Positions 5,748 to 63,892 of a stretch of DNA of 64,000 bases are shown piece after piece. The stretch is taken from contig OY987249.1 in the NCBI GenBank assembly GCA_963920765.1, forward strand, positions 20,122,483 to 20,186,482, read 5' to 3'. The stretch is from Ulota crispa. Lineage: Eukaryota; Streptophyta; Bryopsida; Orthotrichales; Orthotrichaceae. The notes beneath the pieces are model-generated. The model did not search any database. It was not told the DNA's origin and saw nothing but the letters and a program-made list of their open reading frames with translations. Each line of letters starts with the position of its first letter. Positions within the stretch are counted from its first letter, which is position 1. A program made the position numbers and the translations under genes.

Positions 5748-8700
5748 CACTAGTAGAATTGGGGGAAAAGACAACTGTCATTTTACAACTGCTTAAGAGT
5801 CATAAAGGACATGGCATGACTTTTAAATGACTCCCAGCAATTGTATCACTAACGTAGTTGTCTTAGAGTCACTTCTTAGTTGTTCGGGACTTATTTCAAT
5901 GCAGTGACATTTTTACAACTGCAAATATTTCATCCTCATGAAAATCATCCTCTGCCCTTCAAAACTTTTACTACCTCAACCCCCCTGCCCTTCTTTTTCT
6001 TTTGTGACAAGAAATCTTTTGAACGGTTTTCAATGTTGCAATAAATTTCCTTTGTCATATACTTGTCAAAAGGACCCACCTACGACATATGTCAAATTTT
6101 CATTTGTTAAGATCAATTTTTTATTATTTCATTTACCTAGATTTTTTTTTGAAAAATATGACACATATCAGACACAATTGTAAGACAATTGTAGTGCAAT
6201 TACAGTACAATTGTTATGAAGTTGTTGTGTAGTTGTAATAAATTATTGTGTGGTTGTAGTCTAGTTGTACTTTGGTTTATGTGTATATAATGTTTAGTTG
6301 TATTGTAGTTGTATTGTAATTATGTAATGCAATTGTAATACGGTTGATATATAGTTGTAATGTAATTGTTGTATAGTTGTAATTTAATTGTTTTATAACT
6401 GTAGCACAATTGTAATGGAGTTGTACTATAACTGTTGTGTAGTTGTACGGTGGTTATTTACACTAATTTTGTAAATATTAATATTTGACTATTTTGATAG
6501 TTACTTTGTAATTGTTTTTTATTTGTTTATTATATATTTTGTTGTAATTATTTTTTGTAGGAAAATGTACACTAAGTAATTACAATCATGCATACAACTA
6601 CCACACAATAGTAAACAGTCAACAAGTTTCAAATGCTATTCAATTGTCAATCAAACAGTTTCACATGAAAAATTCTAACAATGCAGTTGTAATGTAGTTG
6701 TAATGCGGTTGTAGAGCAGTTGTTAAGGGATGCAACAACACTGCACTACAGTTATGCTATAGTTGTAGCACACTCTATAACCAATTGTGATATAGTTGTC
6801 AACCAATTTTGACAAGGTCACACATTATTTGCAAAAATTGGTAGTCAATACATTGAAATTTAATTGCAAACCAATTGCAATAGGAATTAACCTAGATCCT
6901 AGAATCTATTGTAGTTGCACTCTAATTGCACATTGTGCTTCTATAAATTGCAAACTCTTGCTAATAGTGTGATATAAGCACACAAACCCTACTTTCTCTA
7001 AACTCTTGTCAAAACTTCAAAATGAACCTAAAAGTTGCAAAAAACCACTTCTGAAATTTAGGTCAATAAGGATTAGCAACCATATAAGCCACATCACAAG
7101 ATCCTGTATACACAATGAGATATGATTTTTTGAAAACTACCTAATTACACACATAGAGCTGAAAACCACTATGCATTCAAGAAGCAATCAACATTTCACT
7201 AACAACTCAAGATAAGGGTTTCAAATTTCTTTCAAAAACTAGACTCTACCACATATCCAGCATTCAAATTTGCACAAAATTGAGCTAAAACTCACCAAGA
7301 TGTGGATTTTTGAAGCTGGGTTGAAAACTGCCATTGTAGTAAACATCCTTCTACTAGAAATTCTACCAAAAACTCCTCAAGATTCAAAATCTAGCATGCT
7401 TGGTGCCATTGGAAAGCTACTAGCATAAGGAAGAACTTTGAAATTTTTCAAAAAATAAAGATCAAATCCAAACTTATAGCAAGCAAATGAAACAAGCTAA
7501 TACAAAAGAAAAGGGACTTTCATTCATAAAAAATCTTGGCGTAACTTTGCCCTACAAGTGAGAAGAATGAGTGGAAGAGAGGAACCATCAGCCTTTTTAT
7601 CCTTTTGTGCAAGGGTTCAAGGGTGGCGGCCACATCTCCACCCTCCAAACTACAAACCCTAATCTGAATCAAGAGTCCACATTTACTAGAAGAAATCAAT
7701 CAATAAGCAACTACGTCACAACTGCACAACAACTAAATGACTATGTAACAACTGTAAACTAATAGTGAAACAACGGTAAAATAACAATGAAACAACTGTG
7801 AAACAATTGCAAAATAATTTATTACAATTGTGCAATTGTTGTATAGTTGTTGCAGCATAGTCATGTATTGCATATTTTTCTTCAAGTGATTGAGTCTAAG
7901 ATTACAATCCAATTTTAGGGCTGCATGCTTTTATAATTCCAAGGAAAATGTGTTTTTGGCAAATACATAACGAATGTGCTTAAAACACATTTTTACCTCA
8001 AAATGGATTAATTATATTTTAAAATCCAAATTGTGAAGCATAAAAAACAAATTAGTTTGCAATTTTTGAAATTCTAACATTTAATTCTTGAATCTAGTGG
8101 ATTATTTTGGAAGAAGTAAGTGAAATTTTGTACTCTATATCTTCTATCTTCAAAAAATAACTAACATTATTGGTAATATTAGCATTTTTTGGAACAAAAT
8201 TCATTTCAGTTTTCAAAAACTTTAATTATAAACTTTTGGTGATATTGCTTCTTTTAATATTGCTATTGCAATCTAATTTAGCATTTTGTAAGTTTTGAAG
8301 TACAATACAAGGTTAAGGTGATTAAGCTTAGAAACACAATTTAAAAATAGGCAAACTAAATTTGTGATAGTTTCATACTTGCGTGTTTTTTAATACAGTT
8401 ATTACAATCATTAATTGCATTTGAGTTTTAGTCAATAAAGTAGCATTTAAATTCAAAGATTGTTATAAATTTAATAACAATGTTTCATATCTTCTACATA
8501 TCTAAATTGGACTTTTTTAAATTGAAGCATTTGATTATTACCTTTTGTGATTTACCAAAAAATTAAAAGAACAAAGATGACTTTTAAATAACCTTTAACT
8601 ATCAATTAATATTTTGTGCTAATACATGATTTTATTTTTGGAATACATGAACTTTATAATCTATTGTAAAGCGTTTTAATTTTATTTCAATATTACTATT

Positions 8701-30651: not shown

Positions 30652-30730
30652 TTAACCCCAAAATGGCCACAACACCAAAATGTGGTGTTTTTAACACTGA
30701 AATTTGGCACCGTGGGCATTTAGGGATTAA
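30652..30730. mobile_element. 79-bp remnant of a TTAA-flanked MITE
   Basis: TTAA, then CCCCAAAATGGCCACAACAC and the subterminal AAAATGTGGTG, are followed after about 30 bases by GTGGGCATTTAGGGATTAA. Both ends match the group at 43755-44689 and 63213-63892, so nearly all of the interior has been lost while both ends remain. Confidence 0.65.
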
Positions 30731-43747: not shown

Positions 43748-45060
43748 TTAACCCTTAACCCCTAAATGCCCAAGGCACCAGATTTTGGTGTTTAAAAAAC
43801 TTCAGGAAATTTTAAAATTGTGTTGAAGGCACAAATTTTGTTGTTTTTTAGTGTTTTTTTTTATAGAAACGTTGCATGCTGAAGGTAGTTAGCTTCACTA
43901 TTCAAATTTAATTTTCGTCATACCTTTTTTCAATTGTTTTTGGTGGAAGGTTGAGTGCAAGCATACATTTTGTGTCATGAATAGTGTCATCAAAAATGCC
44001 ATGAATAGTGTTATGAATAGTGTCACAAAGCCCATGACAAATTGTCACATTGAAAAAATGGGCATCAAGTTGAGCAAAAGGTGAAGATTTCCCTTGTAAA
44101 CTCCCTTGGGCAGTAAGGGCCTTTTACTGAAATTTTGACATCTATCAAAATCTAAAATTGCTTTTGGACTAATTTCAATTGGAATATCTTTGTTATAGAA
44201 ATTAGAATTCATTCACAGTTGGAGTTTCTTGCATTCAAATTGATTTTTGGTCAATAATTGAAGCTAAAAAAATTCTTGGTATTAGGTATTTGCACTTTGA
44301 TAGTTGCGTAGCAAGCTCATTTGTGAAACTATGGTCATGGATATGGAAGGGGGGCCAACAATTTTGAAGTAACAACAATAAACACTAAAGCATTCTAAGT
44401 GGCTGCTTCCCAATTTTGTATCCAAAAGTTGCCAATTTGCATTGGAAATTTTGGGCGGCTCCAAAAGCAAAAAATTCTGTACTCATCATCATTCTTGATC
44501 ACAAATATCTTAAAATCCAAGTGGCCATCTTGGATTTTTTTGGCACCGCCATCTAGAAACCTTGAAGTTCAAAATTCAACAGTTACAATTTTGTTTTGAT
44601 GTTTAATAATGATCTTGCAAAGACAATCCAAAAACTTCAAAACTGCCTTCTAAAAATGAGAAAAAAACCCTTGGACATTTAGAGGTTAAATGCTGAGGCA
44701 GACGTTTATTGTACGCTAGCCTCAAAAAACACTATGCTACAAAGAAAAAAAGCAAATTTCATCTTATTTTTTTTCAAAAGTGACCATATACACATGGGGC
44801 ACCATGGATGGTAAAAAAACAACCTCACAAATGACATTCATATTTATATATGGTCAAAATTGTGAAAAGATTTAGAGACACAGTATTAGGTTCCATGCTG
44901 CCCTTCTTGCCATTTTCATGAGGGCACCATGCACTATTGACTTTTGCAACTTTAAAGAGCAATCTTATAAGGTGGAGCACCGGCACGGTACTATAGCAAT
45001 ACTGTAGCCACACTAGTAGCCGGGTTGATCACGGTGACCAGCCCGGTGTTTAAGGGTTAA
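43748..45060. mobile_element. outer TTAA-flanked MITE carrying a nested copy
   Basis: The left end is TTAACCC, at once interrupted by the inner element; beyond it the left end resumes as TTAAATGCTGAGG at 44686. The right end, complemented, is TTAACCCTTAAACACCGGG at 45060. Removing the inner element restores TTAACCCTTAAATGC, which matches the right end. The outer element without its insert is about 380 bases. No coding capacity. Confidence 0.72.
43755..44689. mobile_element. inner TTAA-flanked MITE, nested
   Basis: TTAA borders both ends. The left end is CCCCTAAATGCCCAAGGCAC with the subterminal hairpin CACCAGATTTTGGTG. The right end, complemented, is CCTCTAAATGTCCAAGGG. It is related to 63213-63892 through the ends and the following 100 bases. 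It sits in the TTAA of the outer element's own terminal CCCTTAA. Confidence 0.75.
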
Positions 45061-45480
45061 GCTTACATTCAAGTTGCGTAACGGCCATTGCAAAACATTA
45101 TATTGATACTAACATGAGACACTTTAAATATTGTATTCAAGTTGCCCCTCATTGATAATTTCTTGACATTTTCCACTTGTTAAATACTTAATAATATTAC
45201 AATAATTTTCAGCAATAATTCTTGCAATAAACGATTTTTAAAGGGCTTGACAACAACAAAAACAACAATGTGGAAAAGCAAACTAGCAATGTCCATGCTG
45301 TAAACTATATGAACTCCTAATATCTAGAAAGTTGCATGCATCTTCAAGTGGCCAAGCAATAAGTCACAAGGTAACTTTCCATGGTAAGGCAACCTAATTG
45401 TTAAGGCAACTTGAATGTTGAGGCAACCTAAATGCAGTATCTAGTGTAGCATATTTTCACACCATTGTAAGTTTTGAAAA
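45061..45480 (-). repeat. dispersed repeat, copy 2
   Basis: It is inverted relative to 1-310. It contains three AAGGCAACCTAATTG-type units of about 17 bases in a row (45376-45435) and TTTTTAAAGGGCTTGA near 45240. No coding capacity. Confidence 0.55.
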
Positions 45481-45527
45481 TTATTGAAACAAAATGAAGA
45501 AGAAATTGGCATTCACAAGTTCTTCAA

Positions 45528-45740
45528 TTAACCCTTCACCACCCATGGTATTTTTGAGTATCTCAAAATTTGCTTGAAAGTGAACAAAATGTTGGCATTT
45601 GGATCAATCTTATCAATTTTCTTTCAAGAGCAACCATACATATTCAAAGTAGACATGCTATAGATCACATAGGAAAGGAAATCATAACAATACCGTTGAT
45701 GGGTTGAAAGATTATAATGTTTAATCATGAGGGTGTTAAA
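45528..45740 (-). mobile_element. TTAA-flanked MITE, split by a CACTA element
   Basis: It begins TTAACCCTTCACCACCCATG. Its body matches the inverted right part of 63213-63892: GTAGACATGC, AGATCACATAGGAAA, TTGAAAGATTATAATG, GAGGGTGTTAAA. The match stops exactly where the CACTA element begins at 45741. A weakly similar stretch at about 50396-50516 may be the other part; the far end was not found. Confidence 0.6.
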
Positions 45741-48700
45741 CACTAGAAGAAAACAGGGTATCCGCGACTAGAGACATGCGACTCCCAGCATTTGTGCCCA
45801 AGTCATTTTGTCCATAAATGACTGGGAGGCGACTAGAGCCAATCCAATTGCCTTGCAGTCGTGTTCACAAATTTGAATCTAAGCTAAGGTTTTGTATTAG
45901 CACCAAGCAAAGCTGGCGTGGAAGTTCATCCAAAGGTGGATCCCACCACGCTGACTATGCATTTCACCAATTTTTGAAAACGTGGCGTTCCAAGATTAGT
46001 TACATACTTGAACGTGGGGTTATAGGATTGGGTGCGTAATTGAAGATTATTCTGGTATATTGCGGGTCTCACAGACATAATACTTTCCACAGTCATCTCC
46101 TAGTCGCGGTGTAGGTTACATGGTAGTCATTTTATGACCATAAGAGTGTCTGATGACTAGAAAGATGTTTGGTTAGAGTCGTGCAATTGTGTATGAGAAA
46201 GAGCAAGGTCATTCAAGAGTTGGTGCCCAGTCCTAGAGTAAGAGTGGGCACATGCTTTAGAGTAGCTTATGAATTTTGCAAACATTCATTTATAGATTCA
46301 AGATTGCGTGACACAAACCATCACTCCAAAGCAACTAAGAAACAACTACATTACAATTGACAAATGTCCATGGGAGTCAATAGTTCCTACTTCAACTTAC
46401 AATACAAATCACATTGAGAGCATGGACAGAGTTTAGAATTTGTGATGTTCCCATAGTGCAATGATTTTGTATTGACGATGTAAAAATATTAGAGTATTGT
46501 GAGCCACTGTCTAATCGTGCCCACCATCCACCTTGCACAATGAACCTAAAGACTCAAGCATACTCTGCCCAATTTTGTGAAAATGAGTACAACACACTCT
46601 ATAAAACACTATGTCACCACAAAAATAGACTTATTAACCTGCAACTTTCAAAAAATTCTTGTCCCAAATGACGCATGAACCCTTTGTGTCTTCAAAGTTA
46701 GTTTGCTCAATATCCATGTGTGAAAACATGAGTTGCACTCCTAGGTGCAAGATCTCTTTAACATCTATTTTAAACCATTGCTCCGCGATCTCTATGTTGT
46801 GGAACTTGTGCTCCCTTGGAATGATGCTAATGGAGCAGGAAGCCAATCATTGCCGGATGGACCTAGGGTTTAAGAGGAACACATCATCACCAACGCAAAG
46901 TTGTCCCTCTTGCATATCACATGGAATCTCAAAGGTGAGTTGCTTAGAGATGTCTCCTGAGATTACCTACAAGAACTCTAGAGGCCAAGTCTAGACACTG
47001 GACATGTGCACAAGCAATGGCAAGAATTATCATACCTTCCGCCATGTCATTTTCATTGGAATGTGTTGCCTCCAGAGAAGATTCCCCCTTGCTGCTCTTG
47101 CTGCTCATGTTGCACAAGTTTCCAACGACCTTTCCACGAGCTTTTCCTTTCTACTGCATTACTGCCTTCCTTGTAGTAGAGCGCAACAAACTACTCCTCC
47201 GTGGTGGCTCCACGGCCTCTTTTGCCTTTGCCTTTGTTTTGTTTGTCTCCCGGCACAAAATGTCACCAACCTGCAAGTTCAAACCAAATTCTCGAATGAA
47301 GTCCTCTTGGACCAAAAGGTACTAGCAACCACAGATAGGATAACAGTTATGGTAAACCGCAACATGCAAAAGAGCTAGAGGCAAAACACTTATTAGAAGA
47401 GGAGGTCAATGGGTAGGATTTAGGGTGAGTACTGGTTTAGAGTTTGTGGGGGTTTAACATTTGGTAGGGTTTGGGCGCTTCTTTATTTAAACCTATTTGG
47501 GCTAAAAAAGAATGCTACACAGACTAGCCCATGTGGATGCCGCGCTACCTTTTGCGCCATCACCAAGGCAATGAAGACAATAATGATGGAAGGCGACCCA
47601 TTCACGACTAACATGCAACTACCAAATAGTTGTGTTTAGACATAGCAGTCACATTCTAGAACTGCCTCACAACCTTGCACAACTAGAGGACAGCTGCACA
47701 TTGAATTGGGCACTTAAATTGAGAACCATGCTTTGCCGCCACCCTAGACATGAGGAAATTGCTACTTGCACTAACAAAAACCGTCCAAGGTTTTGGAATC
47801 CACAGTCTTGGAAGTCAAAGAGGAGAAGTTTGAAGGTTTTATGTCTAAAATTGAAGCACTAATTGGGTATCCTCTTCCTAGAGTATTATAGAAGCACACA
47901 AAAAAAAACCACACATGAAAATGGTAAAGTAGTCTAGGAATGTGTACCTATAGTACTGCCTTAGCGCCAAGGAGGGTTTGCATGCGCTCTTCATTATTGG
48001 CAACCTTCTTGTCCCTCTTAAGTTTGTACTAGGAGCCATTCTCCGGAGGTGGCTCAGCCATGGCGCAGGTGTTGGGCGCTAGAGGGATGGAGACCACAAT
48101 CATGTCCGATTGGGAAGGAACTCGCCTAGAATAGCAGATGCGTGGAGCGGCTATAGGTTATCGCACCCGCACCAAAGGGAGATGACGGTGGCACTTGTGT
48201 TGCTCGCGGCTCCCGCCTAAGGACCTTGCATCTTCTAACTCTGGATGTTGTAGCTTGGGCCCCTTGCTCCTGCCAATGTCGCATATCGCTCTTGGGCTTT
48301 AGGTTAACCTAGCCAGAAGTAGTCATAGCCCAAGCACGTGGTTGGAGTCCAACTAGTGCAAAGATAGAGAGGACCAAACTTGTGGTGCCTCAGGACAATG
48401 GGTTGGTACACTATAGAATGAAAACAATGATGCCTTTTATTGCAGTAACGCCAGGGTCATAATTGAGGTCAATAAAAAGTGGTTCATTCAAATAACCGCT
48501 ACGTGTCCTCTCCTAAATTGAGGGTAAATGTGATTACTGCCTTTGTAAATTGAGGTGCGATAATTGCACCCCAACGACGTCCACCTATGGGCTTGCTTTA
48601 CCATTACTTTGAAATAGTAAAGTACCATGCTATAAATTTGAAGTGGTCACCCACCTTTAAAGGGTATAGGGTTCACCGGACTCCATTGTCATCCTCATGG

Positions 48701-50395
48701 TTTAGGGTTGCAATTTAGGATTTCTTGCTTATGTTTAGATAGGTTTATACCTACCAGAAGTAGGTGGCTAGGTATTGTAAATATTGATTGGCGACTGTAC
48801 AAGCACTCGTGCCAGTTACATTTTTTCATATTGTTGCTAAACACAACTCCAGCACGACTGCTTGCAATCGCGACTGAGTAGTGTTATATCCAAGGCAGAG
48901 AGGATACCATGTGCTGTCTTCTGTAGTCCCTATAATGGTGAGGAGTGCCCGTTGAAATCTAAGCCTCTCGTAGTAGTCATTAAAATATATGCTATCTACT
49001 TAGATGAACCAAAATACATTACTTTTTTTTTTTTGTATAGAGCACCACAATTGTTAGTTTGGGGGGAATTATTTCCCAAAAAGGATTTCAATGATATTGA
49101 GTTTCGTTTCATTAGAATAATTTGTAGATTTGAAGCTTGGTTTTTAATAATTCCTTGAAAGTGTTTCATTGTTGAGGTAAGGGCTTCAAGACATAATCAG
49201 AAACTTGCTTTACAAAAACACACCTGTAAACATAAAATGTAGGAGCCACAAAATTGGGTTGTTTCCCCACTGTATCCCATACATGATTGTTCTCCTTTTG
49301 GGGGACACATGGGATTTTTGGCAATTTTCTAGGGACTCAATTTGTGCCTTCATTTTTTGAAACTTTATGAGAAGATAGAAAGACAAAGTACCTTTCATGC
49401 AATATAATGTTTATTGCAATCTATGCCAAGAAGCAAAAATGCTACCCACATCACCACAAAATTGCGTAGACCGGGTAGCAAATTTTTCTTTACAACAACT
49501 TCAATTATGTTATTTTTTTATTTTTTTCCCAATGATTATATGTTTTTTCCACATTTGAAGCTTTGGTTCATTCCATTTGGACTAATTATGAGAAAGTTAT
49601 GGACATTCCTATTTATTTGGGCAAATTAAGCATGTCCTCGAAAAAAATTACTTGTGAAGTTAATTTTCAAATACAAGTATAATAAATATCCAAAAGCAAT
49701 TGTTCAGGAGGGTGGAGATTACTTGCTAGAACAATAGAACAATCTCACCATTGGGAGTGATGTGTTTGAATACCACTGCACAGCTATAAACAATGTAACT
49801 TCTAATTCAATCTCATGCCCTCTTTGACCTATTTTGTTTTTAGAATTGAATATTCAGAATTCTTTGTTTCAATTAATTCCCAAGGGTCTCCAATTCAATT
49901 TCCAATTGTACAAGCATAAACCTCCAAACTTTGTGGTGTTGCAGTTCTAAGTTAAAGAAGTTCACAGAGAAAAGATCTAGTCATGCAAGGTGCAAGAAAG
50001 TTTATTTTTTACACTTTGAGCACAAATATCTTGCAATATTGGCTTCTTCATGTTGTTGTGCACCAGTCGTGTCTTAGTCACTACACCCAACTGCATAGTT
50101 GTGCACGCGACTAGGAACATACTGCTGTGGGTCCCACTCAGTCGTCAGACTATGACTAGCCATCTGTCCTTGTAAATGAGGATGAAAAAGTGTCTTGGAA
50201 CACACATCGTCATCACATGGACCGTCAGAGTTCATCCAGCAATCATGGTTGCAACTAGGGGATGACTAGCGCGATTTTAGTGATGACGTTGTGGTGCAAT
50301 TACAGAGTTTTCTATGTATCCACAGTCACATCAGCCAAGCAATCACCCTGCAGTCATGGGCCCCCAGTCGCGAATACCCATGTTTTCTTCTAGCG
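45741..50395. mobile_element. CACTA (En/Spm-type) transposon with decayed gene
   Basis: The left end is CACTAGAAGAAAACAGGGTA followed by TCCGCGACT. The right end, complemented, is CGCTAGAAGAAAACATGGGT followed by ATTCGCGACT. The pair matches over about 29 bases, with one change in the terminal CACTA. CACTASAAGAAAA is the usual plant CACTA end. Subterminal regions (45750-46160 and 50040-50395) are crowded with GACTAG and CAGTCG words. The flanking triplets (AAA and TAT) are not identical, so the target duplication has decayed or the right end is slightly misplaced. A different family from the CACTA at 5748-12011. Confidence 0.75.
46634..48070 (-). pseudogene. decayed gene inside the CACTA element
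   Basis: Separate minus-strand pieces look like exons of one gene. An ATG near 48063 opens MAEPPPENGS, then a stop, then YKLKRDKKVANNEERMQTLL. Near 47260-47160 is a basic run (KAKAKEAVEPPRRSSLLRST) and a stop. At 46640-46960 are EIPCDMQEGQLCVGDDVFLL, a stop, then IEQTNFEDTKGSCVIWDKNF. The YKLKRDKKVANNEER pattern resembles the N-terminal region of plant CACTA-associated proteins (the TnpA or Ptta/En-Spm group); this is from memory only. At least three stops show that it is broken. Confidence 0.4.
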
Positions 50396-50527
50396 TATCT
50401 TGGATATGAAAATAAGAGAATCACCATGAAAAACCAAAAAATTCTCTTCCAAAAGGTCCCATGGAAAAAAAGTATTTAGTTGCAAAATGTAGCAAACTTT
50501 GAAATCCCTTATTGATGTGGGTAAAAG

Positions 50528-50817
50528 GGAAATGCTATATTGTGAGCCGAGATCCATGAGCTGTGAGCCACGAGCCTAGATTTTTTGTTAAATAATCAAT
50601 TTCACCTATAATTGTGTATGTAGGGCCTTATAATCATGCTTTTTAAACTTTTATTTTTATTTTTTTATTTTTTATTTTTTATTTTATTTTTTATTTTATT
50701 TATTTTTATTTTTTTAGTTTTTCAATTGATTTTAAGCTCAAAATTGATTCCTACTCACCAAATCTTGGCTCACCGCTCACAAGCTCACCATTTTGTGCTC
50801 ACAAAATAGCGTCGTCC
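50528..50817. mobile_element. Mutator-like MITE, copy 1
   Basis: The ends are GGAAATGCTATATTGTGAGC and, complemented, GGACGACGCTATTTTGTGAG. The sequence GTGGGTAAAAG flanks both sides (50517-50527 and 50818-50828), an 11-bp direct repeat close to the 9-11 bp that Mutator-like elements generate. A long ATTTT tract fills part of the middle. The same family occurs at 62822-63082. Confidence 0.82.
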
Positions 50818-50828
50818 GTGGGTAAAAG

Positions 50829-51455
50829 TGTAAAACATTTATAGTGTTTTTGATACCAACTTCAATATCCACACATTTCAATGTAACATAACAAATTCTA
50901 AAAAAGGATAAGAGTGTTTATTTCTAGAAGTATGTTCACCAAAGCTTTGTTGGTGCTTTAATGCAAGACACCATAAACTAACAAACATTTGGCCACAAAA
51001 TGTCAAATACTGGTTGACTTTGGGTGATGTTAACTTTCTTTTGGCAAATGATAATTCCAATCAAGTTTTGTAATTTTTTTCTTAAAATCTCCATGCTTAA
51101 GGTAGCAGAACCTATAACCATCAAATTAAGGGTTTTCAACATAATGACTATTAATAAACATCTAGAAAATTATAGGATCCTATTAGCAAGGGGAAATGAT
51201 GAGTTTGCACTTTCACATTTATTTTCTAGATACTGTGAGAATAAGTTGTGAATTTTTAAAAAGCTGATTGCAATTGCACCTAATGCCAACACTAAGGTTT
51301 CATGTTCACATGTTGTACATCCTTGTAATTACATCTATTCACTTCCACAGATTTTTCAAGATTTTAGAGGTGGTGGATATAGATACAATGATGGTTATGG
51401 GTGTTGCTACCTTATAGTTACAAAGAGTTTCAACTGGTGTTATGAAAAAAACCCC
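50829..51455. other. intergenic, no gene seen
   Basis: No exon or element end recognised. Confidence 0.4.
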
Positions 51456-52442
51456 TTAACCCCTCATCACCTAAGGTCCAAAGAGGCCTAAAGGCATCTT
51501 TGCTTTTGAAGTGTTGTAAGTTTGAATGCCAATAGAGTATGGAAATCTCAACCATACAATCTTGTAGTGTGCATGTTGTAGATGATGTGAATGAAACGTG
51601 GGGTCATTTGACCACATAGATTGGAAGATTATAATCTTTTAGTGCTTAAAAAAGATGCTGAAATTTTCCTAAAAACACATTTGGAGGTGAAATTTGATAT
51701 CTAAACCTACTCAAATGAAAAAAAAAAAAAAAAAAAAATGTAATGTGATTCAAACCAATATACAAACACATTGGTGAAAGAAAATATCAATGATTATACT
51801 TATTTTGTTGGCAAAATTGTTTTGAAATTTCAAAAATTAGTGAAAAAAGTAGCAAAAAATCACATCTATGGCTAAACCTCCCTCTACTAATATGCTTCTC
51901 ATTCACTCATAACTACTTGGATTGATATGAAATTTTAACCACAGTAACTAGACTAGTATGCGCAACCTTTCCAATAACAAATACTGAAAACCAAGTTTCT
52001 ATGAAGAAGTTATAAACCACCAAAGTTCACTATAACTCAAAAATGTGTGGATTTTGAACTTTGAGTTGCTCCCAAACATTCAAGAAAACTTGGATTGACA
52101 TGAAAATTTTATCACAGTTTCTAGACTTTAAGGGGAAAGAAACTCAACAAATTTCATAGAAAACAAACATTTGATGAAAAAGATACAAGCCCCCAAAATT
52201 GCAACCGTCACAATGCATTGTGGGGAAATCAAATTGACCCTCTGAACTTTGAATGGTTCTCACAAACTCAATATGTCTTATATTAATTTGAAAAATTTAT
52301 CATAGAAACTAGATTAGTATGCGCAAGTTTTTCAACAAATTTTATTAAATTTGGACAATCAACACAAAAGTTATAACACTTCAAGTTGGAGTGATGGCCA
52401 TTTAGAGGACACAAAACGTCCTCTTACGCGATGAGGGGTTAA
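51456..52442. mobile_element. TTAA-flanked MITE, CCCCTCATC subgroup
   Basis: The left end is TTAACCCCTCATCACC. The right end, complemented, is TTAACCCCTCATCGCG. The 987-bp body has three diverged repeats of a unit containing TGAAATTTTAACCACAG / TGAAAATTTTATCACAG and TAGTATGCGCAA, spaced about 150-170 bases apart. A 23-base A run lies at 51719-51740. No coding capacity. Confidence 0.72.
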
Positions 52443-53436
52443 GAGAGAAAAAAACACGGAACTTCCAGAGACCGTCACACGAGTTTTGTTATATTACAAG
52501 GAAGTGGATGGATTATACATCCAGAGTATCTTATTGTTTACGGACTTACAGACTATTGGAGGATCTGTTATCCAATTAACTTTGAATGCTAGCAATTAAG
52601 GGGTGTTATGAATAGTTAATATGGTTGTTAGGTCTTTGTTGTTTTATGTTGTGACACTCTTCAATATGTTCAAATTTGTTGAAATTATAAGCCCCTCAAT
52701 AAGTTGAAATTCCTTGTAACTATAAGTAAGGAGATGTTAGGAAAAAAAGCTAAAAAGACTAATTGAAATTATCATTTGCCAATTTTTTTTAATAGCATCC
52801 AAAGTCAACTATGATTTTACCTTTTGTGGCCAAATGTTTGTTGGTTTATGGTGTTTGCATTGTATTACACAATGTACAAGGAGAGCCAAAAAACAATAAA
52901 AAATCAGCCAAATGAAATGAGGGAAAAACCCATTGAAAACTAAATCAACCAGCTAAAAACCGACTAAAAGTCTGAGAATTTTCTAATTATAGTATATATA
53001 TAGGGAATAGCTCGTGCATGTACTACAAAAACCATATGGAAATGAGAAATGTAGCGGCATTTTATCAAAGTAGCTCAAAAACTCCCCGCACACTGGTACT
53101 ACATACTATCCTTTGAAAAAGGCCAACCACCCGGCCGAGAGATTTATTTTAAAGAAAAACCAACCAAAGACAAAATTAAAAAAACTCTACCCCCCTCCCT
53201 CCCTCAAATAACTACTATATCCCATATCTTATGTGCGTCAAATTGATGTCACATAAATATAAGTATGGGGGTGGGTGAGTGGGTGTTGTATTCTACGACC
53301 CATCTCAATATTTTGACCCAATAAGATATTGACACATGTAAACCTTTCAATTTTTTTGGAAACGTTTATCCACCAATGGCTGAAGGACATGACCCACCAA
53401 TTTTTTCATGTATGGTTTTCAGAATAGACTATTGCG
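52443..53436. other. intergenic, no gene seen
   Basis: AT-rich, with no supported exon. Confidence 0.4.
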
Positions 53437-53527
53437 TTCTGGTATTTTGAGTGACTATCCACTACTACACATCCTCTCTTCTTCTGGTATTTTGAGTGAC
53501 TATCCACTACTACACATCCTCTCTTCT
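53437..53527. repeat. perfect 45-bp tandem duplication
   Basis: The unit starting TTCTGGTATTTTGAGTGACT occurs at 53437 and again at 53482 without a difference, so the duplication is recent. Confidence 0.85.
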
Positions 53528-53682
53528 TCTTTTTTGTTCAAAACACGTATCACAGGGTACGTTGTAAAATTGTAACCTTGGAATCTGTACTATGTGTTAC
53601 TCCATACTGCAAATTCATTGGCAACCTATCGTGTATGCAGAATGACAAAAACATTGTCAAGACCATCTAACATTTATTAAAA

Positions 53683-53993
53683 AGGGAAAATTTCATGGAT
53701 ATCCCTGAAGTTTGCAGTATTTTTATAGACACCTCTGCTTTTTCAGAAATATCATAAATATCTTGGGACAAAAGAATTTAGGCGTTTGATTTTGTTTTGC
53801 ATGCCATTTCCTGTCTTCCTTTGTGCCCACGCATAATAAGAAAGAAGTAGTGTGCACACAAATGGAGAAGAAAATGGCATGCTCAAAACAAACGCTTAGA
53901 ATTTTGGTCCAAGGGTATTTGTGATATTTTTGAAAAAGTAGGGGTATCTATGAAAATATGGCAAACTTTAGGGGTATCCATGAAAATTTCCCT
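53683..53993. mobile_element. foldback MITE, 310 bp
   Basis: The two halves are inverted copies over about 140 bases: AGGGAAAATTTCATGGATAT and, complemented from the right, AGGGAAATTTTCATGGATAC. Inner matches include GCATGCCATTTYCT. No coding capacity. Confidence 0.8.
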
Positions 53994-54007
53994 ACAAAAA
54001 AAGGGAC

Positions 54008-54402
54008 CTACTAATGCGACACCCTAAATTGCTAATGGGACACCCCCTAATAGCATAAATTTGATTTTTAATGAGTTTTTAATGCTAATTTTTTATTTGG
54101 ATCAAAAGATTTATTTCAATTTTATCATTTTAAGGCTATACTAAAAAAAGGTGTGCTTAAATTTGAAACTAAAAACATAGGACTTCTGAGTTACTTAAAG
54201 CAAAAACATATCAAAATATAGTATTATTGCAATAATATTTCAACAAAAATTTATATTTGTCTTGTTTTCTTTCAAGAAGGTGGTAATGTTGTGATTGAAT
54301 GAATGATTGACCACTTTGAGTGAATCTAAATTAGCATTAAAAATCAAATTTATGCTCTTAAGGGGTGTCCCGTTAGCAGTTTAGGGTATTGCCTTAGCAA
54401 TT
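54008..54402. mobile_element. inverted-repeat MITE, about 395 bp
   Basis: The left end has GACACCCTAAATTGCTAATG then GGACACCCCCTAATAGCATA; the right end has the complement of both. The arms are about 90 bases. It lies 15 bases from the preceding foldback MITE and is a different family. Confidence 0.75.
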
Positions 54403-54893
54403 CCCATAAAAAAAAAACATGTTTTGACCTATCTGTTTGGTAATTCAACTGGTGTTACATGTTGCCATATGCCATACCATGCCATGTATTTGTGAAGTTG
54501 TGGGGAAGGTCTAAGGGCATTAGCACCCGCTCGGAAAAATCCGGCCAGCAGCGGGGAAACGCCAACCTCGTAAGTATTGGTTTTGTTTTCATTCCCCATC
54601 TACGCGGCATCTCCCCCAGCTTTTTGCAAACGTTGCCATCCCTGAAATTGTGCACAGTGATTTCCCCTGTTTTGCTGCTATGAAATACAGTCCGGCAATG
54701 GTTTGTCGCTTCCTCGTTATTGTCATGTTATTGTTGACCAATAGAAGGTGCTTTGTAGGTGCTTTGTGCAGATAATACCCAATGACGGCCTCATCTTTGA
54801 ACACGGGGAGCGGACGGGTGTGTTAAACCGCTCACAATGTTGGCTCTTCTTTTGTCGTGACTAGTAAAAGCTTAATTTGCCAGAGTTCCCGTG

Positions 54894-55814
54894 TAGCCCG
54901 TAAAGGACCAAACCTTTTTTTTAGCAACATAGCAATTTTGGGCAGGTACCTGTGATAAGAGATCTTCATATTTTAGGTTGAAATTTTAACAGAATGTGGA
55001 AACCAAGTTTATCTTTCATACGCACTAGATTTCATGACATTTGACAATATGAGTAAGAAGATATAGCCTAATATGTTGTTTTTTTCACTTGATGAGCAAC
55101 CTGGGCAAATTTCACAAAATAGCTTTTTTCAGAAAAATAAATTTGAAATTGGTTTAAGGGATTTATGTGAAAGTGGAAAACTTTGAATAATTCTGTTTTG
55201 ATGAATGAAATGAAAGTTATGAGGAGTTTTTGTTTGTGGGCAATTATGGATTCTCTACTCTAAAATAAACTTTGAAGTCCATTATTTTACTCAATTTTCA
55301 ATTTTTTGGAAAAAAAACAAAACCAAAGGATGGAAATTGTTAATTGCAATATTACATTTGTTGGAATTGGCATTTTTCATTTCCATAATCAAATTCTCAA
55401 CAATTTTGTATTTTGAATCATTCTCTACTTTCTTTCACTTACTATTTTTGTTCCATATGCTTTATAATTCCAAATGATTTGAAACTATTTTGACATGTAC
55501 CCTATTTAGCTAGAATAAGGAATTTAAAGAAGTTCCATCCACACGGCTTTTTTTCCTCAAGAATTCACCTTATGAAAGATAGCTACCCAATTTTTCACAA
55601 GACGTTGCTGAATATTCAAACCCTTGTATCTTCCAATCCACAAGGTGGAAAATTTTGATTTTTTTTTTTCCAAATCTTCCCAAACTATTCTACTACAAGA
55701 CCCTACAGTTACACATGCATAAAAATGTTTTTATTTTCAAATTTGGTTGATGCTCTAAAAATGGTAGTTTTGGAGAGTTTTTGATGAAAACATTACTTGG
55801 ACCTTTAGGGGGTA
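54894..55814. mobile_element. degenerate TTAA-type MITE, long subgroup
   Basis: The ends are CCCGTAAAGGACCA and, complemented, CCCCCTAAAGGTCCA. The body matches 55952-56889 (for example TGAAAGTTATGAGGAGTTTT and AATAAACTTTGAAGTCC). The flanking TTAA has decayed at both ends, so this is likely an older copy. Confidence 0.65.
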
Positions 55815-55951
55815 GGGAAGGTGGAAATTGCTCTCACATTTATAAAAAAACATTGCTAATTAGCATCTAGCTGCTGGGCATGGGATGGGGGATGGGCAAT
55901 TGGGCATCTATTGTTCTTTATTCAGCTTGGTGGATGGGTTCACCAACTAGT

Positions 55952-56889
55952 TTAACCCCTAAAAGACCATTGTCCCTTTGGGGGACAGGTTGGACTTTGG
56001 GCATGTACCTATGGTTAAACTACTTTGTTTGATTTTTTGAAACTTTTATTGAAAGTGGGGAATTCAAAAATCTATGTGGTCATCTAATTTCTTCTTCATT
56101 TCAATATTTGACAAAGAAGTTATGCATGAATTTCAAAAAATTTGGGGAGGACTGCCCATTTGGGCAGCCCAAAAACTTCTTTAAAAATTACATTTTTTTA
56201 AAACTCAAATTTGAAATTGGTTCTTTAGATTTACTTATTCATGAGAAGCTTTTAATTATTCAATTTCAATCAATGACATGAAAGTTACAAGGAGTTTTTG
56301 TTTGCAAGCAGTTATGGAATCTCTACTATAAAATAAACTTTGAAGTCCTTTATTTTACTCAATTTTCAATATTTTGGAAAAAAAATTAAAACAAAGGAAG
56401 TACATTGTTTATCACAACATTTTCACCGTTGGGATTTGCATTTTTCATTTCCATAATTAAATTTTTAGCAATTTAGTGTTTTGACTCATTCTCTACTTTT
56501 GTTTACTTACTATTTTTTCCCATGTGTTGTATAGTTCCAATTGATTTGAAAATTCTCCCACACATACGTAACATGATCTCCTATATGGAAAAAATAAAGC
56601 ACAACTTTGGGTAGAGCAATTTCTTTGTTATAAGAGTGGTCAAAGGCTTTTGAAATTTTTGGGTAGCATGGAAAAAATCTTTTTTTTCACTTTAGATGTA
56701 AATATCTCACTCCTCTCCATTTGGAATGAGCTGATTTTTTTCCCACAAGTACCTCTTCCAATATGGACCAAGATCATACGGCTAGATTTCCCAAAAACAA
56801 AATATAAAATCCCTTTTTTCTAAACCTCCTAAAAGTGGCTGTTTTTAGTGATTTTGACAAAAAAAAGGGCTTGGTCCTTTAGGGGTTAA
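55952..56889. mobile_element. TTAA-flanked MITE, long subgroup
   Basis: TTAACCCCTAAAAGACCA opens it, and its right end, complemented, is TTAACCCCTAAAGGACCA, so the ends differ at one position in 18. The body is related to 54894-55814 and 61264-62578. No transposase frame. Confidence 0.8.
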
Positions 56890-58560
56890 ATTAAAAAACT
56901 ATAAAGTGACCTAGTGCAATTCTCACCCGAAGCTTCTATGCCAAGGGGCTAGGGCTAGATGGCATGCCGTTTGGCTAGCCCCAGCCAAAATGGCATGCCA
57001 TCTGCCCCAGCCAGCTGTAAGCATTTTCTAAGTGACTTGGGACTTGCAATCCAGGTCATCATAGAGTAGTGTCTCCAAGACTCCAACAGTGACGTGGCAA
57101 CTGAAATGGTGCTTTAAAGGGGCTCCCGATGTCGATATTCCAGCCTGTTTCTGTATCTTTTGAGTTTTGACCCCTAAGTAAAACCTACCCAATTATTGTA
57201 CAATGGAGACTGTTGTGGGTTGCATGCCGAGCTTATGCCCTCCTTTTATTGAACTTTTTGGCATCAAGCTCTCATCAACCACTCCGCATGCCTTAAACCA
57301 AAACATTACCATGCACAATATTTTTCCAATGCCACCCTCAATTTCATATACCGATTTATTAAATGAGAACGAAATGTGAAAGGTGTTAGGTGGGGTATAA
57401 ATGGGTGACTATTAAGGCCCTTACAAATTCTCAATGCGTTGTAGCAGTTTTGTTTAGTGGTAGTTCATCTTATCGTACTTTATCACATGAAATGAGATGA
57501 GCAATTTGATATTGCAATTCAATAGAGAAGCACTTCAACTGAGTTGGTTTTAGACTTTTTTGGGGTAGTGTAAGGATACTTATTCGTGAGCTATAGTCTA
57601 AAACAGTAATTGTTTGTAAATTTCAGCTAGGATGCTCATGAACCTTACCTATGATGGTTTGTATTATAAAGAAAAAGGCCATTTAGATTGAGAAATATGT
57701 TTTCACTTGCATATATTTGCATTCACTTTATTTTCAAAAGTAATGTGTGTGTTCTTTAGCATGTTTTCCAAAATGTACATTAAAATGGATGCTAGCATCC
57801 ATATTCACATTAAGGAATACTCATAATCTGAAAAAAATATGTTTAGGCCTTCTACTTTCACCTTCCATCTTCTTTCTTCTAAAAGGGGGCTTGCATATAT
57901 CCATATATTTCCAATAAATATTTCTCATTTATTACACAAAATACATACATTGTGGTATAAACCTAATTGCAATATACATAGTGTGATGACATCAGGAGAT
58001 TAAATTAAAAACAAATGAGACTATTTGATGTGTAAAATTTATAACGCATAACCTAAAAGTGTTCATTACAAGGGTAGTTACCTTTGATGGATTGTAAATT
58101 AGAATGAGTATATAGTAACAATTTCACAAATTTAAAAAAATGTAGGAGATAAGGATGGTTTCACATGCCAACCATCTATGAAGATTTTTCCCAATTAGTT
58201 TATAGTTTTAAATTTATTCTTTTTACCCAAAACAAGAAAGATTCTTCAATTTTGAACAATAAAAAAGACGAATCTTCTACCTTGTCATATTAGGCTTCCA
58301 CCATTAGGCAAGCCATGTAGCTTTGGCAATGCATGGACTTTGTGACCTTCAATGTCTCAATCTTGTAACATGTTGAGTTACTAGGCGAGGATTACAAAGC
58401 TTTGCATTTATGATTTTACAAATCACATATTTGTTGTCCACTGTTTCCAAATTCAAAATTTGGTAAAAATATGAAAGTTTTGCGTTTGCTAGTAGTTTCG
58501 GTATACAAATTCTAAACACATAGAGCATGATTCATAATGGAAACTTCTTAGTCTATACTA
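56890..58560. other. intergenic, no gene seen
   Basis: AT-rich. It includes a repeated GGCATGCCATTTGGC-type word near 56960-57010 (GGCATGCCGTTTGGC, GGCATGCCATCTGCC). No exon recognised. Confidence 0.4.
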
Positions 58561-58794
58561 TTAACCCTTAAATGACAATAGGGCATAGTATATAAGCTAT
58601 TGTATAATTGGCATTTGCTGCCAATAAGAAGTTTTAATTTGGGATCTTAAGTAGTCTACTATATCCGCTTTGATTTATTCCCCAACTTCTTTGTTGATCT
58701 CAAATACAATAAAGGTGTGACTCTATTCCAAATACAAGAAAAACACCTCATATTCTACTGGTTGCAGAGGCTCGCTCAGCCCGTTAGGGGTTAA
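58561..58794. mobile_element. TTAA-flanked MITE, short subgroup
   Basis: The left end is TTAACCCTTAAATGACA and the right end, complemented, is TTAACCCCTAACGGGC. The body is closely related to 2095-2316 and 60199-60428. Confidence 0.78.
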
Positions 58795-60198
58795 TTTGTA
58801 CCTCCCTCATCGTCACAATTTGCATTATAACATAATCTGGGATCTTTCGTGCATGCTCAAACAACTTTAGAGATTGAATTTTTAGAAGCTCTCAAAAAGA
58901 TTTCTCAATTACTCAGTCACCGTATTCTCACTCTCAGTCGACTCTGATGAATGGTACAATGGGTTTTGGACTACCCATCATTAAGGGTAGCTTTATACTA
59001 GGAGTTAAAACCATGACAAATTGGGGTCATTTCAACCAATTTTTTTGCCCGAATAGTTTCAAGAACGAGACTAAGTATTTGTTATACCTACAGTATAATG
59101 GAGGACATTTCCCTTGTGCGTAGAGGCCTTGAGGCCAAAAAGCAAAGGTGGATAGTGCAAATTTTAAATTTTTCAAAAAGAAAAAGAAATATAGAGAGAT
59201 TGATTGTATTTGTTGAGGTTTTTATTCCATTGGATGGTGTTGGTTACCTCAGAAAATTAATATTTAAATCAAAAATAGAATTTCAATTCTATTTTATTTA
59301 TTTTAATAAAATTCAGCAATGGCTCTAACAAAAAATTGACTTCCCATTTTTGGAGAACCCAATATTTGGTATTAAGGTTGTGTTGCAAATCTTGTTTTTC
59401 AATCATTAGAATATTTCTTGAGAGAATGACCTTGACTCCTAGTGACCTTGACTCCTACTGTAAAGGCTTTGGAGCTGGTTTCAAAAGCCAAGCTTGGGAG
59501 TTGCAAAGACTCCAAAACAATAAAGGACCTTGACTCCTAGTGTAAAACTTCCCTACAACAACTAAAGGACCTTGACTCCTAGTGTAAAACTTCCCTACAA
59601 CAACTAAAGAGAAACTGAGCTAACTTGATTCCTGCCTTGGCATCGTTAAATAATTGTCAGAATTTAGGTCCTTGATGTATTGTTGTACGGAAAAGCAATT
59701 CACATATTTCTAAACACCAAGAGAACTGCTAACATGAATGTTGGATTCAGATCAATAAAATAATTTCTCTCTTCATAATTTCCACACATTATTACGAGAA
59801 ACTTGAACCCTAAAGGATGGTGCCTACCAAAAGCATTGGCTGTATTCATATAAGGATCATTTAGTACTTGAAGAAATAGCTTTATGACAAATGTAAAAAA
59901 AATCCAAATTTTTTTAGGTGATTGGGAACATGTTTGTGATTACAAGGAAATCATGATCAAATCTACAAACAGGTAACAAAGATTGTAACCTAATTTACAA
60001 TATACTGTAGATTAGTTCACAATCCTTGTCAATTTTTTGTAAATTCAACAATTGTTTCCTTGTAGTGTACTTGGTTTAAAATTTATAATTGCAATGAGAT
60101 TCATGTGCTACCCAAGTACCCCATCTGTATACAACACATGAGAGCATATGCAATACAACAACATTCTTCTTTATATTTGTAACTCCAAATTCCTTTAC
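58795..60198. other. intergenic, no gene seen
   Basis: No exon supported; the frames at 59098-59328 and 59336-59533 have no recognisable motif. It contains the tandem duplication listed at 59523. Confidence 0.4.
59523..59608. repeat. 42-bp tandem duplication
   Basis: AAAGGACCTTGACTCCTAGT and the following CTTCCCTACAACAACT occur twice in succession. Two shorter copies of CCTTGACTCCTA lie at 59428-59460. Confidence 0.8.
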
Positions 60199-60428
60199 AA
60201 CCCTTAAGTGATCATAGGGCATAGTATATACGCTACCATATAATTGGAATTTGCCACTAATAAGAAGTTTTCATTTGGGATCTCAAGTAGCTCGCTAGAA
60301 CTGCTTTGATCTATTCTCCAACTTCTTTGTTGATTTCAAATGTAGTAAAGATGTGAATCTATTCCAAATACAAGAAAAAAACCTTGTATTCTATTGGTTG
60401 CAACTGCACGCTCAGACGTTCAAGGGTT
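60199..60428. mobile_element. TTAA-type MITE, short subgroup, decayed ends
   Basis: The body matches 58561-58794 (GGGCATAGTATATA, AATAAGAAGTTTT, TCCAAATACAAGAAAAA). The ends AACCCTTAAG and TTCAAGGGTT are recognisable, but the flanking TTAA is not intact. Confidence 0.65.
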
Positions 60429-60472
60429 ATCCATCATGGCTAGCAAGGAATTGTCAGGAAAACCAAATTAAC

Positions 60473-60832
60473 TTAACCCTTAAACGTCGGGCTCATCCCT
60501 GTGGCCAACCCGCTACAATGACTTCTACAATGTTTTTCAAAAATTTCAGAATTGTGATTGGTGTAACAAGTGCTCAGCTAGTTGCAAAAGTGAACAATAC
60601 AAGCTGACCTCACAAAAATTGTAAGAAGGGCAGTATGGATCTCCTCACAATTTGAATTGTCTAAAAATATGAGTGTATTTGATGAAGTTATTTTTTACCT
60701 TCCATGATGAAGCATGTGTTTATGGTCACTTTTGAGAAAAAATCAGATGAAAATCTGCTTTCTTCTGCCATACAGAATGTTTTTTCAGAGGCAAAGGACT
60801 AAAATCGTCCTTTTGGACGTTTAGGAGTTAAA
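60473..60832. mobile_element. TTAA-flanked MITE, 360 bp
   Basis: The left end is TTAACCCTTAAACGTCG and the right end, complemented, is TTAACTCCTAAACGTCC. The interior has no clear match to the other copies here, so only the ends tie it to the family. Confidence 0.7.
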
Positions 60833-61263
60833 GCTTTCACATACAGGGATGGCCGCTGGCCTTGGCTAGTTCTGTCCTGCAAAGTGCTGTATATGATTGC
60901 TTTTGTTCGTGTATTGCAGTACGGTTATAAAAAGAAATCACCTTTCAAAGTACTCCAGAACCAGTGCAAAAGCTAGTCAACAGCTGCTTGCAGTAGAGTG
61001 TATTAGAAGAAACATAAAAGCCACAATCATAGACAGGGCTGACTTGCTTGAAACATTACCTCCAAGGAAGCACGTTTTTGATGAGGTGGCAATAGTCAAT
61101 CAAATAATATACTTTAAGCTACATCCAAGATTTAAAATCAAAATTTGGTTAAATTAAATAATTGGAATTTATATTTTGAAAATTGCTAAAAGTTAACATA
61201 AATGTCACAATAAACTTATTTTTATAAGTGAGACTGCACTGATTTTTAAACCTAAAGAAATCT
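60833..61263. other. intergenic between two MITEs
   Basis: A plus-strand frame at 60897-61157 contains the protein-like words VECIRRNIKATIIDRAD and LPPRKHVFDEVAIVNQ, but no family was recognised and no splice partner is evident. Confidence 0.35.
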
Positions 61264-62578
61264 TTAACCCTTAAAGGCCCAAGTGGTCCCTCGGGGGCCA
61301 AGTGGGGTTTTGAGCATGTACTTACAGCTAAACTACTTTGTGTGGTTTTCTGAAATTTTTATGGAAGATGAGGAATTTAAAGATCTGCTTAGACATTTAA
61401 TTTTTTCTTCATTTTGACATTTATTGAAGAAATCATGCATGAATAACTGAAAAAGGGAAGAATGTGGCGGCTCAAAAAAAATGAATTTTTAAAAATAAAA
61501 GTCTGAAATTGGTTCTTTAGATTTTTATATATGTGGGAAGCCTTGAATCATTCAATTTTGATTGATGAGATGAAAGTTATGAGAAGTTTTAGTTTGGGGG
61601 TAAGTAAGGGACTCCCAAACCTCCATTCCTTTTGCCCCTTCTAAAATTTGGTGCTTTACTTTTTTGACTATTTGTTTTTTTACCTTTTTTTCTCCAAGTT
61701 GTAGTAGACTATTGTAGGTTGGGAGCACATTCGGCAGGTCTCTGTCTAATCAATTATTTTTTGGGAAAAACCCTATTAGGCATTTGATTTCATAATTAAA
61801 CAATATTAGGCACTTTCAAAAAAAGTTGTTATTATTTGGCATTCAACCAATTTTTTTAGTAGAATTAAACCTTTTTCTAAGCATCTTCCACTTTCTAAAA
61901 CTAGCCCTTAGTATAAAGTTTGCAGTAGATTGAGCCCTCTTGGACAACCTTGACCTTCCATTGTTAGTAAGTTTAATGACTTTTATAATATTTGACACTT
62001 CAATTTTTTGATTTGTTTGACATTGGGCACTTTTAGAGAATAATTTATAGAATAATTAAGCAAAATTTTGAGGAATTATTTTATGCCAAATCTGCTACTA
62101 ACCTACAGTAAAAGTCCTTGGTTTTCACCATTTGAATCACAATAATTCAAATTATTCAATTTTACATAAATTCTCCAATTTTGCCTAGTGTATTTGCAAA
62201 TTTCATGACCTTTTGGCATTGCAAGATTTTACAAATTATGTGCTATACCTCCAATTGATTTGAAAATTCTCCCATATTTACCTAACTTGGTCTTGTACAT
62301 GGAAAAATAAAACCTCAGTTCTACATAGAGCAATTTTTTTGTTATAGGAGCTATCAAAAACTTCTGAAATTTTTGGGCAGCACGGAAAAAAACTTTTTTT
62401 CCACTTTAGATGTCATATCTTACTCCTCTACATCTAGAATGAGCTGATTTTTTTTCACACAAATACCTCCCATAGTATAGGGCAAGATCTTATGGCTAGA
62501 TTTCCAAAAAAACAACAATTTTTCTTACCTTTCTACTCATTCTCCCAAAAGTGGCAGTTTTGAGCCTTTATGGGTTAA
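61264..62578. mobile_element. TTAA-flanked MITE, long subgroup with extra DNA
   Basis: The left end is TTAACCCTTAAAGGCCC and the right end, complemented, is TTAACCCATAAAGGCTC. The outer parts match 55952-56889 (CTAAACTACTTTG, TTTTTGGGCAGCACGG). It is about 375 bases longer, mostly in 61610-62130, so it probably carries an internal insertion. Confidence 0.75.
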
Positions 62579-62821
62579 TAACTGTTTGCAAAGAAAAAAT
62601 ATACAATTTTTTAAATTTAAAAAAAACATCATTTAACAAATATATTAAAAAATGAATTGTTTAACATGTTATTTATGAACTATATAAAATACAAACTTAG
62701 ACTATTAATCAAAGGTATTACGGATACCAAGTATTGGGTATGGAGTGCATGGTTATATCTCATGATGCTGCCCTTTTCTCTTATGATATCTTTTGGCACC
62801 TTGTTTCAATATGCTTGAGTA

Positions 62822-63082
62822 GGGGAATGCTATATTGTGAGTGGGAATTTGTGAGTCATGAATCTAGATTTTTGTCAAAATGTTAAATTTCATTTAATAC
62901 TATGCGCATAGGGTCTTATAATTGTGCATTTTGAACTTTCTACACTTGAAAAATTTGTCGTCATTTGAGTTTTTCCATTATTTTTGAGTTCAAAGTTGAT
63001 TTTTGCTCACAAACATCTTGACTCACCGCTCATACCTCATTGTTTTATGCTCATAAATATGCTCATAAATATAGCGTTGTCC
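62822..63082. mobile_element. Mutator-like MITE, copy 2
   Basis: GGGGAATGCTATATTGTGAG opens it, and the right end, complemented, is GGACAACGCTATATTTATGA. CTTGAGTA lies on both sides (62814-62821 and 63085-63092), consistent with a 9-bp-class target duplication. The interior is related to 50528-50817 (AGGGTCTTATAATTGTG against AGGGCCTTATAATCATG). Confidence 0.75.
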
Positions 63083-63212
63083 TACTTGAGTATGATTCAC
63101 CCCTTGAGGTAACTAAGTCAATTCTATTACACGTTGATACAAATTCATGACACTGACATGTTTCTAGGTAGTTGGTTTGGAAACTTCAGTCTATTTCAAT
63201 ATTTGTAACCCT

Positions 63213-63892
63213 TTAATCCCTAAATGCCCAAGGCACCACATTTTGGTGTCAAAAATATTTTAAAATTCAATAAAACTTAACTAAGCTGTTATTTTTAGTG
63301 TTTTGTATTTTAGAATCATTATTTTTTGAAGTTTAGTTTTAGCATCAAAAACTTAATTTTGAAAATTGTTGATTGTAGATTTTTTATTCAAGATTTTGTG
63401 TAAGGGTGTCCATTGCAATCTTGGCTTTTTTAGTATTGAGAACTCATGAAAACGAGCCTCAAATACACTAGATCTTGGAGAAAAACACACTAGATCTTGG
63501 AGAAAAATTCACACTAGAAATTCATTTAAATAAATTGTAAAGGAGATTTTGAAAAGTAGCAAATGGATTGGAGCTATGTAACTATGTTATGTCCTTTAAT
63601 CTCATAATTTTTTGGTGACCAAAATTTTAGATTTGACATGTGGAAAGAGGATTGAAATACTTGAAGTCATTTTTGCAGTTTTAACACCCTCTTGATCAAA
63701 CATTATAATCTTTCAATCCATAAATGGTATTGTTGTGTTATCATTTCCTATGTGATCTATAACATGTCTACTTTAAATTTGTATGATTACAATTTTAAAA
63801 GAATTGATACAACTTATCAAACTATTGGCTATTTGTTGAGTTTAGAGAAAATTCCTATAAGCTCAAAAATGCCTTGGGCATTTAGGGATTAA
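63213..63892. mobile_element. TTAA-flanked MITE, CCCTAAATGCCC subgroup
   Basis: TTAATCCCTAAATGCCCAAG followed by GCA is repeated as a perfect inverted copy at the right end. TTAA borders both sides. The body is related to 43755-44689 and, inverted, to 45528-45740. The perfect ends suggest the youngest copy of its subgroup in the window. Confidence 0.82.

Follow-up and report, generated by a model that had tools for sequence, protein, structure and literature searches.

Thirteen short elements in a 64,000-nucleotide stretch of the Ulota crispa genome (the window; C8:20122483-20186482, in an assembly of 275 Mb and 157 contigs) are very probably non-autonomous piggyBac elements (MITEs). The piggyBac family is best known from animals. 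A preliminary description of this DNA had proposed the assignment, which is supported by PF13843 genes lying within like-ended elements and by a doubled TTAA. Elements of the piggyBac type appear to be very numerous in this genome, with mostly decayed transposase-bearing partners alongside, and what surprises is how abundant they are, at about 10% in two small samples. A piggyBac transposase encoded outside the window would recognize the CCCYTNA-type ends, excise the element at TTAA and insert it at another TTAA, which would be duplicated; by analogy with the superfamily, excision would proceed through a hairpin and leave no footprint, and these particular transposases would mobilize the elements in trans. 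The TTAA borders, the common ends, the like-ended transposase elements and the change from one TTAA to two can be read from the DNA itself.

The elements were called by scanning both strands with relaxed criteria for TTAA-CCCYTAAA ends, by terminal comparison and by all-against-all BLAST. They measure 79-1315 bp, fall into at least five interior groups and in their majority have TTAA borders and CCCYTNA-type ends. Twelve of them cover 7,105 bp and the element at 60473-60831 a further 359 bp, giving 7,464 bp or 11.7% of the window. All eleven starts and the two decayed copies listed in the preliminary description are present, the decayed copies starting at 54893 and 60197. The TTAA attributed there to both borders of every listed element is found in most, but at 45528 a convincing TTAA end is seen on one side alone. 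Likewise, the interiors do form several groups over the size range of 79-1315 bp, but they are not all unrelated, as three sets (58561/60197/2095, 55952/54893/61264 and 63213/45528) are held together by BLAST similarity.

The first of these sets comprises a 234-bp MITE at 58561-58794 (+ strand; strand is given only where assigned), a decayed copy at 60197-60430 (+; 82% identity over 231 bp) and a diverged 222-bp member at 2095-2316, with ends TTAACCCTTATATGACC and TTAATCCTTAAACGACC and 78-80% identity to the other two over about 165 bp. A 938-bp MITE at 55952-56889 (+) is accompanied by a decayed copy at 54893-55815 (+; 79% over 369 bp), in which both TTAA borders are mutated, and by a 1315-bp relative at 61264-62578 (+) that resembles it in blocks of 79% and 72%. 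The 680-bp element at 63213-63892 has 23-bp perfect inverted ends and is inserted at the terminal TTAA of a further element, which continues past the window edge. Its reverse relative at 45528-45707 is a partial copy (73% over 166 bp) with TCAA as the right border, and the similarity to the reversed 63213 element ends at 45707, at an internal motif. This group has ends in common with the element at 43755 and with a 79-bp MITE at 30652-30730, whose CCCCTAAATGCCC-type ends are 80-84% identical to those of 43755 and 63213 over 43-46 bp and which has a copy at 1722-1799 of the transposase locus L029 (87% over 78 bp).

The elements starting at 43748 and 43755, previously given as two, are both real but not independent. 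An outer MITE (43748-45060; right end TTAACCCTTAAACACCGGG), 382 bp long by itself, carries a nested 935-bp element (43755-44689; ends TTAACCCCTAAATGCCC and TTAACCTCTAAATGTCC) at the inner TTAA in its left end. A 359-bp MITE at 60473-60831 (- strand; ends TTAACCCTTAAACGTC and TTAACTCCTAAACGTC, right end TTAACTCCTAAACGTCC) belongs with the outer element, to which it is 72% identical over 208 bp and 80% over 45 bp. The 987-bp element at 51456-52442 stands by itself, with CCCCTCATCRC ends resembling those of the L029/L035 transposase element.

Terminal inverted repeats of the CC[C/T] type, 12-19 bp long, are given for piggyBac in the available text of a study of coral elements (PMC2872659), and such repeats occur in the window elements: 63213 matches at 16 of its first 16 bases (TTAA included) and 11 others at 10-15 of 16. 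Compared with the best transposase-element end, the 24 ends of 12 elements (60473 left out) agree at 10-18 of 20 bases and 422 other + strand TTAA sites at a maximum of 12 of 20 (mode 7), a contrast inflated by the preselection of element ends for the CCC motif.

Candidate enzymes are encoded on contigs C1-C11. The domain PF13843 (DDE_Tnp_1_7) has at least 120 matches in the genome (116 scored of 527 candidates; best E 1.3e-73) and 0 in 14 control genomes, which are prokaryotic as far as named. In the PDB, the open frame of L034 matches T. ni piggyBac (6x67, 4e-20) and piggyBat (9c0f, 6e-17) and no further chain at E up to 0.01. The catalytic triad of T. ni piggyBac is D268, D346 and D447, as stated in the available text of its source (PMC7351741); aligned to 6x67, L034 has aspartates at D268 and D346 and an asparagine at the third position. 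All three DDD motifs were recognized by pattern in 7 of 23 domains (L011, L012, L014, L019, L025, L069 and L070), the remaining 16 being decayed or overlooked by the pattern, and stop codons lie inside the domain in 19 of the 20 best transposase copies. The tree of the 23 domains has good support on 12 of 20 inner branches and contains four supported deep clades. A PF13843 catalytic domain with DDD, a TTAA target and CC-type ends are shared with T. ni piggyBac and piggyBat, whereas the land-plant host and the depth of transposase diversity within a single genome (four supported deep clades, 23 domains) set the present elements apart. As for the C-terminal cysteine-rich domain characteristic of piggyBac, the C terminus of L011 is Cys/His-rich by eye, and Pfam detected no zinc domain in L011 or L069. 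Directly 3' of the L011 transposase gene lies a long four-base microsatellite (about 3019-3666; in-frame HTYIHTYI).

A DDD piggyBac transposase between ends of the same kind, named beforehand as the expected partner, was found in the form of PF13843 genes between such ends at L029/L035, L030 and L032 and of genes followed by such right ends at L025/L026. The L029 (C3) and L035 (C10) loci are 90.5% identical over 5,029 bp (L029 1963-6990), with the transposase within (L029 domain at 4488-5624), and diverge outside. Their identity stops within one base of the TTAA borders, which read TTAACCCCTCATCGCC and TTAACCCTTCATTGCC in L029; the left border of L035 is TTCA. Matching end pairs, in one copy each, were seen at L032 (1896 and 6997; 5,102 bp) and L030 (1182 and 7191; 6,010 bp). 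The terminal bases of the 51456 element are identical to the L029 left end at 15 and 17 of 20 positions.

For the 938-bp group the link lies at the right end. In L025 and L026 the TTAACCCCTAAA right end is located 1,705 and 1,756 bp past the domain, and the 55952 MITE aligns to exactly those ends (79% over 361 bp in L025, 72% over 365 bp in L026), its right 360 bp being common with the 3' end of both loci; the 61264 element is 76% identical to their 3' regions over 444 and 363 bp. Parts of both MITEs had been seen 3' of the two domains, which placed the expected right end of L025 some 1.7 kb beyond the domain, though this figure had not been set down before the flanks were read. L031 has such a right end 1,940 bp past its domain. 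Its stretch 1417-7437 was rejected as one element, since the end at 1417 is more probably part of a distinct 926-bp MITE (ends at 1417 and 2342), and only the right end was used. The right half of the 938-bp MITE suggests that it pairs with the L025/L026/L031 lineage. MITEs other than the 938-bp group and 51456 have 10-16 of 20 bases in common with transposase-element ends, and no clean internal deletion of an examined transposase element was found among the window MITEs.

An exact search for TTAA[CT]CC in 20 transposase loci of about 4 kb, too short for elements of 5-6 kb, gave right-hand ends next to just three genes; 10-kb stretches around seven genes revealed more. Such ends are absent around L033 (9.9 kb) and L069 (6 kb). 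L069 2451-3866 (C8:19570950-19572365) is a 472-aa stop-free transposase-domain frame with no TTAACCC ends within those 6 kb, and may be a young copy whose ends are variant or lie farther off, an element in decay, or else a gene that has been domesticated.

The nested element 43755-44689 is flanked by TTAACCC and ATGCTGAGG and has TTAA on each side. It was removed, one TTAA was kept and the resulting 382-bp outer element was searched (40 scored of 3,193 candidates), which returned 42 matches. One is the window itself, beginning at base 8; 38 of the 41 others begin at base 1-3 and continue through the junction, and three begin at 8, 23 and 45. TTAACCCTTAAATGCTGAGGC occurs at 145 places with up to two mismatches, one of them exact, and its reversed pattern at 0. 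In a full-length copy of the outer element at C7:8368157 the junction reads TTAACCCTTAAATGCTGAGGT, with an intact TTAA, while some copies, including L038 and L032, have CTAA in its place and so show an uninterrupted junction without displaying the target. The empty-site question raised in the preliminary description is addressed by this nested insertion, at which a single TTAA has become two. The joined flanks of 63213 also align through the point of insertion, with 79% identity to L032 and 77% to L034, at the start of a 0.9-kb element (L032 917-1829 and L034 729-1637, 87.5% identical end to end); this empty site is less exact, as G replaces the final target A in L032 and L034. For 51456, the joined flanks align to repeats on the left only and not across the junction.

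The borders were also examined in copies of the 234-bp family. A search with this element (40 scored of 3,011 first-look candidates) gave 44 matches, and among 30 fetched copies TTAA is present at both borders in 23, including L051, which ends at an inner TTAA with another element abutting. The remaining seven are partial matches (L041, L042 and L058), copies in which one border differs (L062, L064 and L065) and L038, in which both do (TAAA and TCAA); no matched non-TTAA border pair exists among the 30. The ten bases outside each border are unconserved, no column exceeding 12 of 23. Over 29 compared copies the median pair identity is 87% and the mean 82.5%, the latter lowered by at least one probably misoriented copy (lowest pair 43%). 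For the 938-bp element, 40 scored of 10,241 first-look candidates yielded 39 other copies at 89-91% over full or near-full length and additionally three short matches at 73-75%. With stops in 19 of the 20 best transposases and a typical identity of about 87% in the 234-bp family, a large part of the transposition probably lies further back in time. Two identical 234-bp copies with mirrored flanks, L056 (C5:4309531) and L057 (C5:4266507), lie 43 kb apart and suggest an inverted segmental duplication.

Harbinger- and mariner-type genes are also present in this genome, so the presence of an enzyme is undecisive and the linkage of ends decides. Tc1/mariner-type MITEs with a TA target in an obligatory TTAA and ends of the form A-CCC...GGG-T would agree with the empty sites taken alone, TTAA being palindromic, and the genome has 134 mariner-type DDE_3 (PF13358) matches. 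The caveat entered in the preliminary description, that a TA target inside an obligatory TTAA leaves the same trace, stays formally true. Such an origin is nevertheless very unlikely, given that the 30 copies include no matched non-TTAA pair and that the gene-carrying elements with these ends carry a piggyBac transposase. PIF/Harbinger (Tourist) MITEs, a common plant MITE source for which the genome holds 150 DDE_Tnp_4 (PF13359) matches, use a 3-bp TTA/TAA target; here the full palindrome TTAA stands at both borders, uninterrupted copies have one TTAA against two in the window, and a 3-bp TWA duplication was not found in the 30 copies or at the nested insertion, which makes this source more improbable still. 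Kolobok is another superfamily using TTAA, and the target speaks for it; with PF13843 as the linked transposase and a PDB search with the L034 frame that at E up to 0.01 matched only T. ni piggyBac and piggyBat, it is the least credible of the three.

The number of ends in the genome is large. TTAACCCCTAAA occurs 30,972 times (15,477 + 15,495) against 77 (41 + 36) for the reversed pattern, and TTAACCCTTAAA 8,947 times (4,484 + 4,463) against 715 (356 + 359). The window is not unusually rich in elements, since it holds 7 exact TTAACCCCTAAA 12-mers where the genome mean predicts about 9 per 64 kb. When 12 window elements served as a library, 11 of them together covered 10.6% of the 87 kb that flank 29 copies of the 234-bp family; the twelfth, 51456, has no match there, and the reversed flanks (87 kb, same library) gave zero matches. 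A genome share of about 10% is a rough figure, from two small samples of which the flank sample adjoins such elements by design. The earlier remark that piggyBac is not a major plant MITE source fails for this genome.

Elements also lie against one another. GGGTTAACCC, the pattern expected of two elements sharing one TTAA, occurs 3,258 times genome-wide against 161 for its reverse, and the 234-bp copies L045, L048, L050, L051 and L062 abut the end of another element. The elements may prefer each other's ends for insertion; this is kept as a possibility only, since saturation would by itself produce some back-to-back pairs when ends number in the tens of thousands. A broader, tentative reading, with slightly less than an even chance, is that piggyBac is a leading DNA-transposon superfamily of this plant lineage, with tens of thousands of elements making up roughly a tenth of the genome, which often insert into a TTAA at the end of another element or a short way inside it and so build chains. 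Ten or more lineages of transposase, distributed over four deep clades, would drive them and would argue for long residence rather than one recent transfer.

The occurrence of piggyBac in plants is already in print; the abundance, diversity and linked transposases were not found there, among the matches listed. In its available text, one review counts piggyBac among seven angiosperm MITE superfamilies (PMC10004981) and states neither a partner transposase nor an abundance, both of which are examined here. The available text of a 2022 review of land-plant transposable elements has six TIR superfamilies and leaves piggyBac unnamed (PMC9033089), plants are named as hosts in general terms in the accessible parts of three further papers (PMC10794571, PMC10140906, PMC10813416), and 1,230 PiggyBac fragments totaling 122 kb are given for a fern in the accessible part of another (PMC6890710). 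No piggyBac elements in mosses or liverworts appeared in the literature, among the matches listed; a moss-genome paper that came up there uses the word 'piggybacking'. The coral CMITEs, as far as described in the available text of PMC2872659, are similar in being short and TTAA-bordered, in having CCCTTT- or CCCCTC-type ends, in their ties to resident piggyBac transposons and in the insertion of one family at a TTAA within another. They differ in measuring about 100 bp, against 79-1315 bp and several interior groups here, and the coral piggyBac elements of 2.2-3.7 kb are shorter than the 5-6 kb found here (PMC2872659, same text). A plant genome with abundant, diverse and MITE-linked piggyBac would alter the six-superfamily list as it stands in the available text of PMC9033089. 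It would also make native plant piggyBac ends and enzymes available for study, and make it testable whether piggyBac was passed down in plants and later disappeared from flowering plants, or instead came in by transfer.

Contamination is an unlikely source of the elements, because they flank a plant gene, on a contig of 21 Mb, and because transposase genes are spread over contigs C1-C11. The gene, at 22052-23469 of the window, is a plant-type phenylalanine ammonia-lyase. Light-harvesting-domain matches in the genome number 56. Among single-domain chains, the LHCII protein L066 is closest to 8htu and 7xqp (449 bits), which we take to be structures from the moss Physcomitrium, followed by 8c29 (432) and 1vcr (431); 9vfj_2, a chain of several domains, scores higher in sum, but its best domain reaches 288 bits. 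By these genes the host is firmly a land plant and tentatively a moss; an ARM-repeat open frame did not discriminate further. Broken open frames on the minus strand of the window at 25996-27989 resemble a hAT-type transposase, and three pieces of them gave no match in Pfam. Four short, weak light-harvesting-domain matches lie on a small contig (C82:25807-32669) that is possibly an algal contaminant, and eight light-harvesting-domain genes with near-identical scores are clustered within 380 kb at C4:21391382-21771811.
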